Shown here: positions 33,058 through 43,215 of the stretch, one piece after another
How the letters are laid out: each line of letters begins with the position of its first letter
How positions within the stretch are numbered: the stretch's first letter is position 1
Origin: Leptotrichia shahii
GTDB lineage: Bacteria > Fusobacteriota > Fusobacteriia > Fusobacteriales > Leptotrichiaceae
Length of the DNA stretch: 64,000 bases
Direction: 5' to 3'
Assembly (NCBI RefSeq): GCF_008327825.1
Contig: NZ_AP019827.1
Span: 310,001 to 374,000 of the forward strand
Made by a program: the position numbers and the translations under genes
The notes under the pieces: model-generated
Told to the model about the DNA's origin: nothing
The model's input: only the letters and a program-made list of their open reading frames with translations
Databases searched by the model: none

Positions 33058-33903
33058 TTATTTAACTTTCTTCAATTTCAGCACCACAATTTCAGGTTGT
33101 GCAAAAAATCGAATAAACATCTCAAAAGCTCCACCACCAACACCTGAAGTAGTATAAATCTTATGTCCATTATATTCTTTTAATCCATATCCATATTTCC
33201 AAGGATGCTTAATTTCTGCCCACAATATCAATCCAAACAATGTTATCTGTCCACCATGAGTATGCCCTGCCAAAGTTATATCTGACCTTTCCTTCTGTTC
33301 ATTTGTCATTTCTTCAAAATAATCAGGATTATGTGTGATGAAGATATTAAAATCATCTTTTTTTATACCATTAAGTGCCTTCTGTGCATCAGGTTTGCCT
33401 TTTAGTAAATCGTCAACTGCTGAAATGTAGATACTCTGGTTATTTACTGTTATTTTGTCATTTTTATTTACCAACACTTTGTACCCAAGGCTTTTCAGTC
33501 CAGCCATATTTTTTTCCACAGAATTATAATCATGATTCCCCAAAATTGCATAAATTCCATATTTAGGCTTTTCTAACTTTTCCATTCCTTTGTAAAATCG
33601 TGGAATTTTACCAGTCCAGTTAGTATAGTCACCACCCAGAATTATAATATCCTTTTCCTGCTTATTTATCAAATCAATAATCCTGTCAAGTTGCTTCTGA
33701 TTAAATCTCGCATAAGTATCCAGCTGAAAATCTGCCGCAAACACAATTTTCTTTCCATCAAATTCTTTTGGAATATCTTTTGAGGCAATTTCTATTGTTC
33801 TAACCTTAAGTTGTGTATATTCATAATGTGCATAAATTAGGCAGATTATAAAAAATATTGCTAAAATTCCTAAAACTGAAAATACTGTTTTTTTAGTTAT
33901 CAT
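33058..33903 (-). CDS. YkuE-type metallophosphoesterase, copy 1
   Basis: 281 residues: an N-terminal membrane anchor (VLGILAIFFIICLIYAHYEY) and a calcineurin-like phosphoesterase domain with AADFQLD, ILGGDYTNW, AILGNHDYNS, THNPDYF and LAGHTHGGQ, which supply the two-metal site. Membrane-anchored relatives such as YkuE act on lipid or wall substrates at the cell surface, so an envelope role is likely. A close paralogue lies at 34,453, with a RidA gene between them, so this is a local duplication. Confidence 0.9.
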   Translation of the reverse strand: MITKKTVFSVLGILAIFFIICLIYAHYEYTQLKVRTIEIASKDIPKEFDGKKIVFAADFQLDTYARFNQKQLDRIIDLINKQEKDIIILGGDYTNWTGKIPRFYKGMEKLEKPKYGIYAILGNHDYNSVEKNMAGLKSLGYKVLVNKNDKITVNNQSIYISAVDDLLKGKPDAQKALNGIKKDDFNIFITHNPDYFEEMTNEQKERSDITLAGHTHGGQITLFGLILWAEIKHPWKYGYGLKEYNGHKIYTTSGVGGGAFEMFIRFFAQPEIVVLKLKKVK

Positions 33904-34452: not shown

Positions 34453-35295
34453 TTATCCTCTTTTAAGTTCAAAAATCACAATCTCAGGTTGTGCAAAAAA
34501 TCGAATAAACATTTCAAGAAAGGCCCCTCCTAGCCCTGAGGTAATATAAATTTTATGTCCGCCATACTCTTTCATTCCATAGCCATATTTTTTCTTATCT
34601 TTTACTGCCGACATAATAATTTTTCCAAAGAAAGTAACCTGTCCGCCATGAGTATGCCCCGCAAGCGTCATATCTGCCTTTTCCTTCTCATTCTCTGTCA
34701 TTTCCTCAAAATATTCTGGATTGTGAGTCAAAAACAATACAAAATCTTCTTTTTTTGTACCTTCAAGAGCTTTTTTCGCATCAGGCTTTCCATGCCACAA
34801 ATCAGCCACTCCTGCAATATATATTTTTTCATTATTTATTGTTATTTTTCTGTTTTCATTTGTAAGAAGATTAAATCCAAGTTTTTTCATATTTTCAGCA
34901 GTTTCCTTTTCACCTGGATACTCATGATTTCCGTAAATCGCATATACTCCAAGCTCGGGAATTTTAATATTTTTAGCATCCTCATAAAACTTAGGAATAT
35001 TTTTCTCCCAAGTCGCATAATCTCCCCCCAGCAATATTATATCCTTTTTCTGTGCATTTATCAGCTCAATCGCCTTTTTTTCCTGAACTCGATTAAACCG
35101 TGTCATCGTATCATACTGAAAATCCGCTACAAACAGTACTCTCTTACCATCAAATTCTTTTGGAATATCTTTCGACTTTATCTCAATCGCCTTAATTTTA
35201 ATATGCCTATACTCATAATGAGCATCAATTAAAAATATCACAATTAATACTACAAAAACCAACAAAAATTTAATAATCCAACTTTTTGCCTTCAT
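34453..35295 (-). CDS. YkuE-type metallophosphoesterase, copy 2
   Basis: 280 residues, same layout as copy 1 at 33,058: membrane anchor (LLVFVVLIVIFLIDAHYEY), then VADFQYD, LLGGDYATW, AIYGNHEYPG, THNPEYF and LAGHTHGGQ. All metal ligands appear intact. The two differ throughout, so the duplication is old. GAAGGAG precedes ATG 35295, and the gene overlaps the end of the membrane gene at 35,270 by 26 bp. Confidence 0.9.
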   Translation of the reverse strand: MKAKSWIIKFLLVFVVLIVIFLIDAHYEYRHIKIKAIEIKSKDIPKEFDGKRVLFVADFQYDTMTRFNRVQEKKAIELINAQKKDIILLGGDYATWEKNIPKFYEDAKNIKIPELGVYAIYGNHEYPGEKETAENMKKLGFNLLTNENRKITINNEKIYIAGVADLWHGKPDAKKALEGTKKEDFVLFLTHNPEYFEEMTENEKEKADMTLAGHTHGGQVTFFGKIIMSAVKDKKKYGYGMKEYGGHKIYITSGLGGAFLEMFIRFFAQPEIVIFELKRG

Positions 35296-37647: not shown

Positions 37648-38943
37648 TTATTTTAAAACTTTATATATTTCAAATGCAATAGCTTTTGCCAATAATGGTG
37701 GAACTGCATTTCCAACTTGTGTATATTGAGGAACTTCATTTTTTCTTGCTTTTCCACCAGTAGTTCTTTTTCCATAAAACACAAAACTATCATCAAATGA
37801 TTGAAGTCTTGCAAATTCTCTAACTGAACATATTCTATTACAAATAGGTAAAATTAAGTCATCAGGCAAAGTTAAGATTGTATTACTTGGTTTATCTAAA
37901 TATAATTTTATTCTTGAATTTTTTTTAGTAACTATCAAATCCAATAATTTCTTCTCCTTTGAAATATTTTTACACTTTTTTACTATTTCCGACTTTGAAG
38001 TAGTTAATCTATTTGATAAATATTCCAATAAATTAGGATATTTAATAATTTCCAATCCATCTTTTATTAGTCTTTTCCTTAACTGTGAATTACTTTCTCC
38101 TTCATTTAAAAGAGAAAATCTTTCTTCTATATAGTTATAATGTTTTGAAAGTTCATTATTATACTTCTTTTTTTCTGAAATTGTTTTATTAGTTACTATA
38201 TTTTTTGTTCTTCCTTTTTGAGAAGATTTTTGATATTTCTTATTATCTAATTCATAATTTGTTAAATCTGATATTGCTTCTCTTAAAGTAATTTTTTGTT
38301 GAATTTCTTTTGGATATTTAGGTTTTTTCATATCATTTCTAAAACCAATTAATATTAATCTATGTCTATTTTGAGGAACCCCATAATTTGAGGCATTTAA
38401 TATTCTTGGTTCTAATAAATTATATTCTACTTTTTTTAATTCATTTTCAATTATATCTATAGCATTTTTATTTTTATAAATTTCATTATCAAAATCAGAT
38501 ACAAAACTTTTAAATTTTATATCAATTATTCCTGGAACATTTTCAAAAACTAAATATTTTGGTTTTATTTCATTTATAACCCTTAAATATTCTTTAAACA
38601 ATAAATTCCTATTATCATTTTCTTCTTGCTTTCCTGCTCTACTAAATCCTTGACAAGGTGGTCCACCAAAAACAGCATCAATCTCTATATTTTTATTCTC
38701 TTCAAAGTCTTTTAATTCCGAAATTATTCTCTTTATATACGTTCCTGTTATATTCTTTATATCCCCAACTTCAAGCCAAGTATTCTCACCTTGGACTAAT
38801 CCCAATTGTTCATGTCTTTTTCTATATGTTTCAGAAGCATCTTTACTTATTTCATTTGAAAAAATAATATGAAATCCTGCTTGTAAAATCCCTTCACTCA
38901 TCCCTCCTGCTCCACAAAATAAATCAATTACTATTGGTTTCAT
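37648..38943 (-). CDS. DNA cytosine-C5 methyltransferase
   Basis: 431 residues, complete. Motif I DLFCGAGG (7-14), motif IV GGPPCQGFS with the catalytic Cys97, motif VI FENV (133-136), motif VIII QNRHRL, a target-recognition region of ~150 residues, then motif IX (REFARLQSF) and motif X (QVGNAVPP). It should methylate a specific DNA sequence that cannot be deduced here. There is no standard restriction endonuclease next to it; instead a DUF262 protein and a nucleotidyltransferase-like gene lie directly upstream on the same strand (56-bp gap). ATG 38943 follows GGAGG. Confidence 0.95.
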   Translation of the reverse strand: MKPIVIDLFCGAGGMSEGILQAGFHIIFSNEISKDASETYRKRHEQLGLVQGENTWLEVGDIKNITGTYIKRIISELKDFEENKNIEIDAVFGGPPCQGFSRAGKQEENDNRNLLFKEYLRVINEIKPKYLVFENVPGIIDIKFKSFVSDFDNEIYKNKNAIDIIENELKKVEYNLLEPRILNASNYGVPQNRHRLILIGFRNDMKKPKYPKEIQQKITLREAISDLTNYELDNKKYQKSSQKGRTKNIVTNKTISEKKKYNNELSKHYNYIEERFSLLNEGESNSQLRKRLIKDGLEIIKYPNLLEYLSNRLTTSKSEIVKKCKNISKEKKLLDLIVTKKNSRIKLYLDKPSNTILTLPDDLILPICNRICSVREFARLQSFDDSFVFYGKRTTGGKARKNEVPQYTQVGNAVPPLLAKAIAFEIYKVLK

Positions 38944-38998
38944 ATATCCTCCATTCTCTTTATTTAGGATAACATTTTTTATTTATTTTGTCCAGGAT

Positions 38999-40126
38999 TT
39001 AATTTAAAGATTTTGATAAAATTTCTGATATATATTTATGTCTTAATTCTCTTTGCTTTTTGTCCATAACACTATTTTTAGCAGCTTGTACATATTCATC
39101 AGGAATCGTTTTTAAAAATATATCTAAATTTTTCTCAAATAATTTTATATCTATATTTTCAATAAATTCTTCATTAAGCATTAAAGCTAAAACTAAACTA
39201 AAAAAATTTCCTCTTATCATAAAATAATTTTTCTTTCGTGAATAATTATAAGTTGGAAATTTAGTTTCACGAAAAATATCTATTATTTTAGAAAAAAGAT
39301 TAAATATTTTTGTTTTCTTTTTATCAACCTTATCTGTTAATTCAACAATTTCATCTTCATCTAAAATTCTTGAAAAAAAACTTCCTTTAATATAAGTACC
39401 AATAATATCAATAATATCTTTTGTTGCATAATTTTGTTTTATTTGATTCGGAGTGTAAACTCTTTCTTCAATATATTCTACTATTTTTTTAAAATCTTTA
39501 TCTGAAGCCCATTTTTTAAATTCTAAAGTAATAAAAGGATTTTCTATAAATAATTTCTCCTCATTTTCTTCTAAATCCTCATCTTGTTTTATTATTAAGT
39601 CTCCAGATAAAAGTCTGGCAAATAACATAAAATTATTATTTGAAAGAAGCGAAACTCTTTTTTCAGTCTCATTCAATGTATGTTTATTTTTATTTAACCT
39701 TCTAAATATTTCTTCTATTTCTGAAATATCTTGCTCTGGATTTAACTTTAATGTAACCGTACCTATTTCATAATCAAGAAATTTTGTTTTTTCTTCATCT
39801 GAAAGTTCTTTATAAAATTTTTCTTTAACTGAAAACTCATTATTTATGAATCTTTTTATTGTTGTTAATCTCTGTTGTCCATCTATTACATGAATATATT
39901 TGATATTTTTTTCTAAATCTCTTTTACCTTCAGCTATAAAAATTTCAGGACAAGGATATCCTAATAAAATCGTTTCAATAAATTCTATTTGATCTTTCAT
40001 ATCCCATACAAAATTTCTTTGATAATATGGTGCATAGATTAATTCTCCCTTTTTCATCATACTTTCTAAATTTCCTATATCTTCTGAATTTAATTTATAT
40101 TTCCCACCTAAAATTTCACTTCCCAT
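38999..40126 (-). CDS. DUF262 (GmrSD/ParB-like) protein, candidate defence effector
   Basis: 375 residues. The DUF262 pattern is complete: YQRNFVW (35-41), GYPCPEIFI, DGQQRLTT (82-89) and FRRLNKNKHTLN (141-152). In GmrSD, SspE and BrxU, this domain with its DGQQR motif binds or hydrolyses nucleotides and controls an attached nuclease. Here there is no visible C-terminal HNH/DUF1524 nuclease motif; the last 200 residues are helical and unassigned, ending KKQRELRHKYISEI. It overlaps the upstream gene by 11 bp and precedes the methyltransferase by 55 bp. GGAGGT precedes ATG 40126. Confidence 0.85.
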   Translation of the reverse strand: MGSEILGGKYKLNSEDIGNLESMMKKGELIYAPYYQRNFVWDMKDQIEFIETILLGYPCPEIFIAEGKRDLEKNIKYIHVIDGQQRLTTIKRFINNEFSVKEKFYKELSDEEKTKFLDYEIGTVTLKLNPEQDISEIEEIFRRLNKNKHTLNETEKRVSLLSNNNFMLFARLLSGDLIIKQDEDLEENEEKLFIENPFITLEFKKWASDKDFKKIVEYIEERVYTPNQIKQNYATKDIIDIIGTYIKGSFFSRILDEDEIVELTDKVDKKKTKIFNLFSKIIDIFRETKFPTYNYSRKKNYFMIRGNFFSLVLALMLNEEFIENIDIKLFEKNLDIFLKTIPDEYVQAAKNSVMDKKQRELRHKYISEILSKSLN

Positions 40127-40706
40127 TATATACCTCCAATTTTTCTTTATATATTTCTAAACTTTCCTTTAATTTATTATGAAATGTTTCTTCATCTAAA
40201 TATATCGCAGCACTTATTTTTTGGTTATATTCTTTACTTAACTCATAAAAAAAATTTCTCCAATTTCTTTTAAATTTCTTGTCTCCTATAGTATCAGGTC
40301 TTATATAACCTTTAAGATAATTTTCTTTAAACAATTGTTCATGTTCAGGTTTACTAAAAAAAGTATTATTTTTAAAATATTCTGTTATTTTCAAAGTATT
40401 TTTATATAAATAATAAAAAAAATCTTTGTTTATTATTGCAATATCTAAATCTGAATCATTTGAAAAAAATTTAATTTCTTTCGATTTTTTAGGTTTTACA
40501 AAACTAAAACCAGTATGAGTTGAACCAATGATTTTAAAATCTTTAAAGGGAATGTTATACTCTTTAGATATTTTATCAAAAATATCATAAACTTTTTTAG
40601 AAGTTATTTTTAAGCTTGGTTTCAAAAGAAATATATGTTTTACTAATTTTTCTGTATTTGAATTTTTTAAGTACTCATCAATAATTCCTTTATAACTATC
40701 GTTCAT
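40116..40706 (-). CDS. Nucleotidyltransferase-fold protein
   Basis: 196 residues. A polymerase-beta-type nucleotidyltransferase signature is visible: GSTHTG (61-66) followed by SNDSDLDIAII (Asp86 and Asp88 as metal ligands), with helical flanks. This resembles minimal NTases, Cas4-free CD-NTases and MNT-type proteins, but the rest of the fold is too diverged to name. A third acidic ligand is not obvious. Its start (ATG 40706) has a weak ribosome site, and it is first in the three-gene operon with the DUF262 and methyltransferase genes. Confidence 0.6.
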   Translation of the reverse strand: MNDSYKGIIDEYLKNSNTEKLVKHIFLLKPSLKITSKKVYDIFDKISKEYNIPFKDFKIIGSTHTGFSFVKPKKSKEIKFFSNDSDLDIAIINKDFFYYLYKNTLKITEYFKNNTFFSKPEHEQLFKENYLKGYIRPDTIGDKKFKRNWRNFFYELSKEYNQKISAAIYLDEETFHNKLKESLEIYKEKLEVYNGK

Positions 40707-41170
40707 CTTTTTATTATATAATTTTATATTATAACTCCTTATATAAAATTATACTCTCCTTTCTGTTTTTATATTTTTTGTCATTTGTCAGAATCAAAAA
40801 CTAGAAAAATAGAGAATAAATTCTCTTTTTAACTTTAAACTCAAAGAAACCAAAAATTTTTAAAATAACCCTAATTTCAATGTACAGGAAGTAATTTCCT
40901 CCTCTTTCCGAATATTCTTCTAATAACTCTAATATCAATTAATTTGAATTTTTTTTCAGTATCTTTTTATTTTAATTTTTCATTTCTATTTTATATTTTT
41001 TTATATTTTTACAAATGTCTATTATAAAAACTATTTATTATAAAGCCTATTTATTCCATTAATATAAGCCTTTATACTTGCTTCCACAGCATCCGTACTT
41101 TATCTATTTCCATTTTTATCTTTCCAAAATCAATTTTGATTACGGTAAAATCTATTACTCTCATCTTAAT
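40707..41170. other. Gene-free stretch with a duplicated leuA end
   Basis: AT-rich, no gene. Its left part should hold the promoter of the NTase operon. From about 41,047 to 41,117 it contains a decayed copy of the last ~75 bp of leuA. Confidence 0.6.
41047..41117 (-). repeat. Duplicated 3' end of leuA
   Basis: Matches the true end of leuA (41,720-41,808) almost base for base over the first 50 bp, then with an 18-bp deletion. It lies on the far side of the DUF4865-like gene, so that gene is bracketed by two leuA ends in direct orientation. Confidence 0.75.
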
Positions 41171-41677
41171 TTATTGAGAAATATGTAAAACTTCGTACAC
41201 TTTTGAATTTTCTGTTTCTTTAGGGGCATCTTCAAAAAAATAATACTCTGTATGTTTCCAATTTTCAGGGTTATATACTAATGCTTTTCCAACAATTTTA
41301 TCATCTGATATAGAAAATTCCATTCGTTTCATTTTTTCCATCGGTTTTGTTTCATTCTCTATTTCCAATAAATATTTTGCTTTAGAAAAGTTTTCATTAA
41401 ATTCTTGCGACAATGGTATTCCAATATTTATAGTCTGCCAGCCAAAAGAATTTAAGATATTGTCATAAAATCCATCAAATATGAATTTATTCATTCCTTT
41501 GTTATCTTTCCAAAAGTATAATGGCGAATATTCTTTATTTTTCTCAGATATTAAATAGGCTTTAAAAAATAAATCTTCAAATCCATCTGTTTTAAATCCA
41601 TTTTCTTGCACTCTTTTTCTAATATTGTTCATATCAAAATCATTTGGAAGTTTTACTTTATACTGCATCATTATCAT
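41171..41677 (-). CDS. DUF4865-family protein
   Basis: 168 residues. The N-terminus MIMMQYKVKLPNDFDMNNIR has the exact shape of DUF4865 proteins (M-x-M-Q-Y-x-x-x-L-P-x-D-x-D-M). Those are predicted YdhR-like ferredoxin-fold proteins, sometimes annotated as monooxygenase-like, of unknown function. SPLYFWKDNKGMNKFIFDGF in the middle also fits. GGAG precedes ATG 41677. It is inserted immediately downstream of leuA and flanked by a duplicated leuA end, a sign of recent acquisition. Confidence 0.8.
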   Translation of the reverse strand: MIMMQYKVKLPNDFDMNNIRKRVQENGFKTDGFEDLFFKAYLISEKNKEYSPLYFWKDNKGMNKFIFDGFYDNILNSFGWQTINIGIPLSQEFNENFSKAKYLLEIENETKPMEKMKRMEFSISDDKIVGKALVYNPENWKHTEYYFFEDAPKETENSKVYEVLHISQ

Positions 41678-41703: not shown

Positions 41704-43215
41704 TTAATTACTATATAATCTATTTATTCCGTTAATATAAGCCTTTATACTTGCTTCCACAACATCTGTACTTTGTCCTCTACCAATAAATCTGTTTCCA
41801 TTTTTCTCAATTATAACAACAACCTGTGCCTGTGCATCCGTATCTCCTGTAATTGCTTCCAATTTATATTCTTCTAAGACAAAAGTGTCGCTCACTGCCA
41901 AATTAACTGCATTATAAGCCGCATCAACTGGTCCGTCTCCAAGAGCTTCTTTAACCATTTTTTCTCCATCTAAATCAATTGTTACTGTAGCTTTTGGCTT
42001 TTTTCCTTCCTGTCTTGAAATTTCAAAGTGAGTCAATTTGATTCTTCCTTCGATTTTTGCTGCATCTCCAGCAACTAATGCGATAATATCTTCATCTAAA
42101 ACATATTTTTTCTTATCTGCCAATTTTTTAAATTGTGCAAATAATTTTTCCACTCTGTCACTTCCAACATGGTCAAATCCTAAAGATTCCAACTTTTGTA
42201 TAAAAGCGTGTTTTCCTGAATGTTTTCCAAGTACCAAGCTGTCTGGATTTCTTCCTACAGATTCTGGACTCATAATTTCGTAAGTTTCAGGATTTGCTAA
42301 AACTCCGTGCTGATGGATTCCTGATTCGTGAGCAAATGCGTTCGCTCCAACGATTGCTTTATTTGGCTGCGTAGTAACCCCTGTCAAAAGACTTACTAAT
42401 TTACTTGTTGGATAAATTTGCTTTGAGTCAATGTTTGTGTAATATTCTTCAAATAAGTCTTTTCTTGTTTTCAAAATCATCGCAATTTCCTCAAGTGAAG
42501 TATTTCCAGCTCTTTCGCCAAGTCCATTTATCGTACATTCAATCTGTGTCGCTCCAGCTTGAATCGCTGCAACCGAATTTGCAACCGAAAGTCCCAAGTC
42601 ATCGTGACAATGCACAGAAATATCCACATTTTCAATTCCTTTTACATTTTTTTTCAAATAACTTATCAATTCAAACATTTCATTTGGAGTTCTGTAACCC
42701 ACAGTATCAGGCACATTTAATGTAGTAGCTCCAGCTTTTATAGCTGTTTCGTATACTTCCGCCAAAAATTCTTTCTCTGTTCTAGTCGCATCTTCTGAAG
42801 AAAATTCAACATCATCAACAAATGATTTTGCAAGTTCCACCATTTCTCTTGTTCTTTCCACAATTTGCTCTTTTGTCATTTTCAGCTTAAACTCCCTGTG
42901 AATAGGCGAAGTCGCAATAAATGTATGAATTCTAGGCTTTGCCGCACCTTTTAGAGCCTTCCCTGCTGCTTCAATGTCTTTCTTCACAGCTCTTGACAAG
43001 CTGCAGACTGTAGAATTTTTGACATTTTCCGCAATCATTTTAACTGCTTCAAAATCTCCAGGCGATGCCACAGCAAACCCAGCTTCAATTATATCCACTC
43101 CCAGACTTTCCAATTGTTTTGCAATTCTCAATTTTTCTTCAGCATTAAGATTAACTCTTGGTGTTTGTTCTCCATCTCTTAGGGTCGTATCGAATATTTT
43201 AATATGCGTTTTCAT
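41704..43215 (-). CDS. leuA: 2-isopropylmalate synthase LeuA
   Basis: 503 residues. Condenses acetyl-CoA with 3-methyl-2-oxobutanoate, the entry step of leucine synthesis. Signatures: FDTTLRDGEQTPRVN, HCHDDLGLSVANS and the HESGIHQHG metal site in the TIM-barrel part, then a C-terminal regulatory domain (about 370-500) where leucine binds in feedback-controlled enzymes. ATG 43215 has AAGGAG upstream; the frame is open 18 codons further but without a better site. It follows the methyltransferase gene at 43,330 by about 115 bp. Confidence 0.96.
   Translation of the reverse strand: MKTHIKIFDTTLRDGEQTPRVNLNAEEKLRIAKQLESLGVDIIEAGFAVASPGDFEAVKMIAENVKNSTVCSLSRAVKKDIEAAGKALKGAAKPRIHTFIATSPIHREFKLKMTKEQIVERTREMVELAKSFVDDVEFSSEDATRTEKEFLAEVYETAIKAGATTLNVPDTVGYRTPNEMFELISYLKKNVKGIENVDISVHCHDDLGLSVANSVAAIQAGATQIECTINGLGERAGNTSLEEIAMILKTRKDLFEEYYTNIDSKQIYPTSKLVSLLTGVTTQPNKAIVGANAFAHESGIHQHGVLANPETYEIMSPESVGRNPDSLVLGKHSGKHAFIQKLESLGFDHVGSDRVEKLFAQFKKLADKKKYVLDEDIIALVAGDAAKIEGRIKLTHFEISRQEGKKPKATVTIDLDGEKMVKEALGDGPVDAAYNAVNLAVSDTFVLEEYKLEAITGDTDAQAQVVVIIEKNGNRFIGRGQSTDVVEASIKAYINGINRLYSN

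Follow-up and report, generated by a model that had tools for sequence, protein, structure and literature searches.

Proteins with a DUF262 domain (ParB/Srx-like, GmrSD_N) are part of several described systems, including the nucleases GmrSD, BrxU and SspE, which share the domain and its motif DGQQR with the protein considered here (excerpts of PMC10952713), and Menshen (NsnABC). In a further type of operon, a C5 cytosine methyltransferase (MTase) gene adjoins a ParB/DUF262 gene and one small gene for a HEPN-like protein (MAE_28990), a family tabulated in an operon with ParB nuclease and DNA methylase genes (PMC3710099). An operon of comparable composition lies within a 64,000-nucleotide stretch of the Leptotrichia shahii genome (contig NZ_AP019827.1, positions 310,001 to 374,000; hereafter the window), where three minus-strand genes encode a nucleotidyltransferase-like (NTase-like) protein (P0001, 196 residues; 40116–40706), a DUF262 protein (P0002, 375 residues; 38999–40126, overlapping the NTase gene by 11 bp) and a C5 MTase (P0003, 431 residues; 37648–38943), the last separated from the DUF262 gene by a 55-bp gap (38944–38998). 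This layout, first noticed in a reading of the DNA without database searches (the original prediction), was confirmed, and the motifs quoted for the three proteins are present in the translations, among them GSTHTGFS (P0001 residues 61–68; 40503–40526) and DLD (residues 86–88; 40443–40451) in the NTase, DGQQR (P0002 residues 82–86; 39869–39883; invariant in seven aligned relatives) in the DUF262 protein, and PCQ (P0003 residues 96–98; 38650–38658) in the MTase. The NTase and DUF262 genes form a real, recurrent and mobile pair, which in the window is joined to an MTase of restriction-modification (R-M) type. The odds slightly favour reading the operon as an R-M-like defence cassette in which the pair would be the restriction part beside a protective MTase.

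Scans of the three proteins against Pfam, NCBIfam and PADLOC placed P0002 in GmrSD_N (PF03235; E 4.4e-23; 82.9 bits compared to a curated cut-off of 33.2) and P0003 in DNA_methylase (PF00145; E 3.2e-61, above the curated Pfam cut-off), and the PADLOC matches listed for P0003 (25 of 63) are methyltransferase profiles. P0001 had no Pfam or NCBIfam family above threshold and no PADLOC match at E ≤ 1; its best Pfam match, to a poxvirus family (E 0.0054), fell under the curated cut-off and was disregarded. Against each described system the operon is similar in part. Unlike GmrSD, BrxU and SspE, P0002 is without a DUF1524/HNH domain, has an NTase partner and only sometimes an MTase. P0002 matches the Menshen NsnA profile over residues 16–374 (E 1.3e-26), but neither NsnB nor NsnC is among the PADLOC matches listed for P0001 and P0003, and an NTase is present instead. 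The C5 MTase-DUF262-HEPN operons have a HEPN-like protein where the window has an NTase (no HEPN_MAE_28990 in P0001–P0003, and no Pfam HEPN match there or in the open reading frame (ORF) at 41171–41677), and their DUF262 proteins are more distant, with DGAQR or a variant where the motif was seen. Partial matches of P0002 were also obtained to PD-T4-2_A, the one component of PD-T4-2 detected (E 5.4e-12, residues 20–97), and, weakly, to the DUF262-type REase_II profile of PADLOC (E 1.2e-6, residues 31–123). A second, longer DUF262 frame (587 residues) occurs in the same genome about 19 kb before the window (G000:C1:290336-291025, L001; E 9e-37).

The NTase-DUF262 pair and its mobile settings

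The NTase family was found at 18 distinct loci (the window, L004, L007, L009, L011, L012, L014, L015, L056/L071, L058, L059, L062/L067, L066, L069, L072, L075, L076 and L112), and at 17 of these DUF262 is the next gene after the NTase; the distance between the two genes, measured in 14 loci, ranges from −14 to +12 bp. An adjacency this consistent, at such close spacing, is not a chance arrangement. The exception is an Aliarcobacter plasmid (L011:5932-8591), where a remote NTase relative (hidden Markov model E 2.1e-21) is followed by a DUF4365 protein. Three of the loci (L012, L014 and L015) came from DUF262 queries and one (L009) was retrieved with a DNA query that covered the two genes, which biases them towards the pair; the other 13 besides the window were found by NTase queries, and DUF262 is next in 12 of them. 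Not all copies are intact: the DUF262 gene is interrupted in L004 and runs off the contig in L056/L071, and the NTase gene is interrupted in L014. Conversely, the NTase was present in three of 22 DUF262 loci from one viral scan.

Trees of the two proteins co-diverge (r = 0.82 for 14 pairs and r = 0.85 for 15 pairs; 0 of 20,000 permutations in each case), excluding L004 and L014 for their interrupted genes and L011 for want of a DUF262 gene, and with the L056 DUF262 sequence partial. Groups common to both trees were the window with L075, L066 with L072, L056/L058/L059/L069, and L007/L009/L012/L015. It is the NTase-DUF262 pair that is conserved, with the MTase as an optional extra.

The pair occurs on phages or prophages, plasmids and chromosomes. 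In a P2-like prophage of Escherichia coli 1500 (L009:3286-4880) it has the replication endonuclease gene on one side and the portal gene on the other, a position that corresponds to the gpA-gpQ spot described as an antiviral hotspot (PMC9122126). Plasmid copies include a 6.2-kb Cronobacter plasmid (L007) and a Pseudoalteromonas plasmid (L112), and among the IMG/VR loci a phage integrase gene lies near L014 and L015 and an S24-type repressor gene near L012 and L058. These settings support the earlier suggestion of a mobile, defence-like module. The single scan of genome contigs for relatives returned Leptotrichia hongkongensis (L004) alone, so that it is the plasmid, E. coli and viral collections that show the pair to extend beyond Fusobacteriota; within the phylum, the NTase profile had three matches in 98 genomes, the window's own among them. 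Phage searches with P0001 and with P0007, a plasmid search with the L062 NTase, viral-contig searches with P0002 alone and with alignment A1, and a PDB sequence search with P0002 found nothing. A match of P0001 on an Alteromonas plasmid (E 1e-3) was set aside as chance by eye, lying inside a 478-residue protein without the motifs and with no DUF262 gene listed nearby.

The pair is not named in the libraries scanned (Pfam, NCBIfam and PADLOC for P0001), and three of four NTases scanned against PHROGs (P0001 was not one of the four) fell only in an unnamed family, phrog_32008. Word searches of the literature recognised no description of the pair; two articles (PMC8565348 and PMC12409362) contain both words, their content not having been assessed.

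Probable fold and putative active site of the NTase-like protein

With no family above a curated cut-off, the label of P0001 as an NTase was at first a guess from its motifs. Alignment of 14 relatives gave nine invariant columns, including the GS pair and both aspartates of DxD. An AlphaFold2 model of the L058 homologue, built from 11 alignment rows, scored well (predicted local distance difference test (pLDDT) 94.1; predicted template-modelling score 0.88), and in a VIA-align comparison its top rows were MNT antitoxins (8xeo, Z 5.0, root-mean-square deviation 4.0, 91 residues aligned; 7bxo, Z 4.7, 85 aligned), followed by a putative nucleotidyltransferase (1ylq) and GrpB (2nrk), with CCA-adding enzymes, CdnD (Z 3.6), poly(A) polymerases and Pol X lower. 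When the family was compared, profile to profile, with 25 Fusobacteriota NTP_transf_2 proteins, the match covered 12 columns, around DxD alone (71% probability), and the NTase profile had one irrelevant match among PDB sequences (E 0.58). For the model of P0001 itself, Foldseek returned nothing significant, and VIA ranked ribosomal proteins first, while alarmone synthetases, an MNT complex and CdnD came lower. The conserved motif and the series of NTases that heads the structural rows of the L058 model favour, without proving it, a polymerase-beta/MNT-like fold, which the family probably has; the strength of the structural matches and the window protein's own model are weighed below.

Where the predicted third (last) strand begins, as placed by sequence alignment, an aspartate or glutamate occurs in five of 15 relatives (L062, L066, L072, L075 and L112) and another residue in ten, including the window, where P0001 has a lysine. 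Judged from these aligned residues, P0001 may be catalytically degenerate, a nucleotide-binding regulator rather than an active transferase. The original prediction had cast the NTase as a signal maker or a modifier of DUF262 or tRNA; the signal-making and tRNA-modifying roles found no direct support, and since the third acidic residue is a lysine in P0001, a regulatory or structural role is equally likely.

The position of the MNT antitoxins as the closest structural rows recalls the HEPN-MNT toxin-antitoxin systems, and the operon could accordingly be imagined as a toxin-antitoxin module in which the DUF262 protein is the toxin and the MNT-like NTase the antitoxin, acting through nucleotidylation. 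The NTase gene comes first and overlaps that of its partner, and HEPN, with which MNT is classically paired, is encoded in related DUF262 operons. Unlike in HEPN-MNT systems, however, the partner in the window is DUF262 and not HEPN, the NTase is longer, and the predicted third-strand acidic residue is missing in most relatives; a toxin-antitoxin role is quite improbable, though it would overlap with the R-M-like reading if the toxin acts on DNA. Signalling of the kind found in the cyclic-oligonucleotide-based antiphage signalling system (CBASS), in which the NTase would make a nucleotide signal that activates DUF262, is the least probable of the alternatives. It is consistent with the nucleoside triphosphate (NTP)-binding motif of the DUF262 protein, the presence of CdnD in the lower structural rows and a weak oligonucleotide-cyclase match in the remote relative L011 (E 0.0054), but P0001 has no CD-NTase profile match in PADLOC, is far shorter than CdnD (196 compared to 300 residues) and has possibly lost the third acidic residue.

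Methyltransferase linkage and the restriction-modification reading

In five of 17 loci the pair has a neighbouring C5 MTase gene, located after the DUF262 gene in the window and L004 and before the NTase gene in L062, L066 and L072. Two of these loci hold further genes: an HNH gene in L062 (E 6.8e-10; PADLOC mREase_IV, E 1.3e-21; SAD_SRA, E 4.6e-5, under the cut-off) and, in L066, a gene for Vsr (E 2.1e-26), the mismatch endonuclease found alongside 5-methylcytosine systems. The MTases beside the pair belong to at least two lineages in a tree. The lineage of P0003 is illustrated by another genome of the phylum (L111), in which the gene for a homologue with 50% to 55% identity to P0003 follows that for an MvaI_BcnI restriction enzyme (E 1e-45) at a distance of 69 bp. 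Enzymes of the MvaI/BcnI type cut CC(W or S)GG. As the homologue serves as modification enzyme in a locus of this kind, P0003 is of a true R-M lineage; the window differs from Type II R-M of this type in that it has no recognisable restriction endonuclease, and the NTase-DUF262 pair stands in its place. The same homology could be explained if P0003 were an orphan, the MTase of an MvaI/BcnI-like system that lost its restriction enzyme beside an unrelated mobile pair. No restriction-enzyme remnant was noticed among the ORFs of at least 80 residues around the operon, the three-gene order recurs in L. hongkongensis and linkage to an MTase recurs elsewhere, all of which make the orphan explanation very improbable.

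The pair may instead be a stand-alone defence system, Type IV-like or abortive, with the MTase a separately acquired passenger that has no functional tie to it. In 12 of the 17 pairs no C5 MTase was found in the flanking DNA examined, the flanks being short in several, and methylation is therefore not a general requirement of the pair. L075, sister of the window pair in both trees, has no MTase in its 6.2-kb contig, and the window MTase gene is preceded by a 55-bp leader of its own and is placed on the opposite side of the pair from that in L062, L066 and L072. Against this, a C5 MTase is found next to the pair in four independent loci besides L. hongkongensis, with MTases of at least two lineages, and also adjoins DUF262 in the absence of the NTase: of the 19 viral DUF262 loci without an NTase, five (L017, L024, L026, L029 and L030) have the order C5 MTase, DUF262 and a small third gene. 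Scans of four of them (L017, L024, L026 and L029) identified this third gene as HEPN_MAE_28990, and the one in L030 is similar by eye. Chance passengers would not show such recurrence, which counts against a passenger MTase, and this explanation is considered unlikely. Separately, in a Vibrio phage (L036:2020-7164) a C5 MTase gene directly precedes Menshen NsnABC by the depositor's annotation.

In the R-M-like cassette, the C5 MTase would mark self DNA and so protect it, and the DUF262 protein, by analogy with GmrSD, BrxU and SspE (as given in the excerpts of PMC10952713), would be an NTP-dependent effector that attacks DNA. The NTase and DUF262 proteins may form a complex, within which the MNT-like NTase would regulate or license DUF262 via nucleotide binding or nucleotidylation, with no diffusible signal. 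DNase and nucleotidase activities are noted for ParB-like domains (PMC5512222), and DUF262 itself could for this reason nick DNA. At MTase-free loci the pair would probably be a Type IV-like or abortive system, or one dependent on a host methylase; restriction of unmodified DNA by DUF262, as originally proposed, is plausible for the MTase-bearing loci alone. A more specific form of this scheme, put forward tentatively and with less than even confidence, is an R-M architecture in which an MNT-like NTase/DUF262 complex has taken over from the endonuclease, acting as an NTP-dependent effector whose activity an NTase-like subunit sets. The effector core would be interchangeable between R-M forms, protected by an MTase, and phage-borne defence forms that have none, and the third gene of MTase-linked DUF262 operons would be either HEPN or MNT, the classical partner fold of HEPN.

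Several observations weigh against the R-M-like reading. P0002 shows no recognisable nuclease domain: it has no HNH/DUF1524 match in Pfam, none occurs in P0001–P0003 at E ≤ 1, and neither P0001 nor P0002 matches a nuclease family in Pfam or NCBIfam, which bears out the original prediction in that no ordinary nuclease domain is present in the three proteins. The expectation of the same three-gene order elsewhere held in part; the pair does recur in unrelated hosts (17 loci), but the MTase is absent from the examined flanks of most of them and, where present, occurs in two gene orders. The pair is rare in E. coli (one of 5,426 complete genomes at the sensitivity used), and in the L. hongkongensis copy all three genes are interrupted, with a divergent patch within the DUF262 gene, reflecting either decay of the cassette or assembly errors. 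The structural evidence for the NTase is limited as well, in that VIA-align Z scores did not exceed 5.0 and unrelated folds (MIF, a secretion-ring protein) were among the rows, Foldseek with the L058 model gave no match at E ≤ 0.001 (best E 1.8), and the good model is that of L058 rather than of the window protein, whose own model is poor (seven rows, pLDDT 69).

If the R-M-like reading is correct, DUF262 proteins, often annotated simply as ‘DUF262 domain-containing protein’, would gain a defined two-protein defence form, and the NTase-DUF262-MTase cassette would connect R-M systems with the world of HEPN/MNT toxin-antitoxin modules. The pair and its MTase would make small, portable constructs open to testing in E. 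coli.

Chromosomal site of the operon

The operon site is a variable spot in Leptotrichia. In seven other genomes of the genus (four further genomes without the anchor flanking gene were left out) the same two flanking genes are kept, the operon is absent and other DNA lies in between: four (L048, L049, L051 and L053) have one YhcG-like kind of gene, the L048 copy of which (L048:5411-6439), when scanned, had DUF1016_N and a YhcG PDDEXK nuclease domain; L054 has a remnant of the same gene; and L050 and L052 have a 137-residue protein. The G+C content of the operon is 22.9%, compared to 29.6% for the window, and four of the 42 other window genes are equally low. In L. hongkongensis the operon occupies the same site and keeps the same order (L004:6001-9055), with an NTase 98% identical to P0001.

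Insertion had first been suggested from a duplicated end of leuA next to the operon (41032–41104, repeating leuA 41704–41808). As an insertion scar the repeat was rejected; five of the seven compared Leptotrichia without the operon carry it too, and it is therefore unrelated to the operon. The suggestion of insertion itself stands on other ground, the differing DNA of the seven relatives and the low G+C being better signs of it. Just before leuA in L. hongkongensis (L004:1350-3444) there are three ORFs that the window lacks; one has an NPPW motif like that of N-methylases, and together they are possibly a broken R-M system.

No terminator-like sites were found around the operon, and promoter-like sites there are at chance level (34 compared to 33.0 in shuffles). 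One of the promoter-like matches, itself not above chance, lies between the DUF262 and MTase genes, within the 55-bp gap (38966–38994), with TG ahead of the second hexamer. Near the operon, the window also contains two similar phosphoesterase-like genes (33058–33903 and 34453–35295), with more related copies in several relatives.

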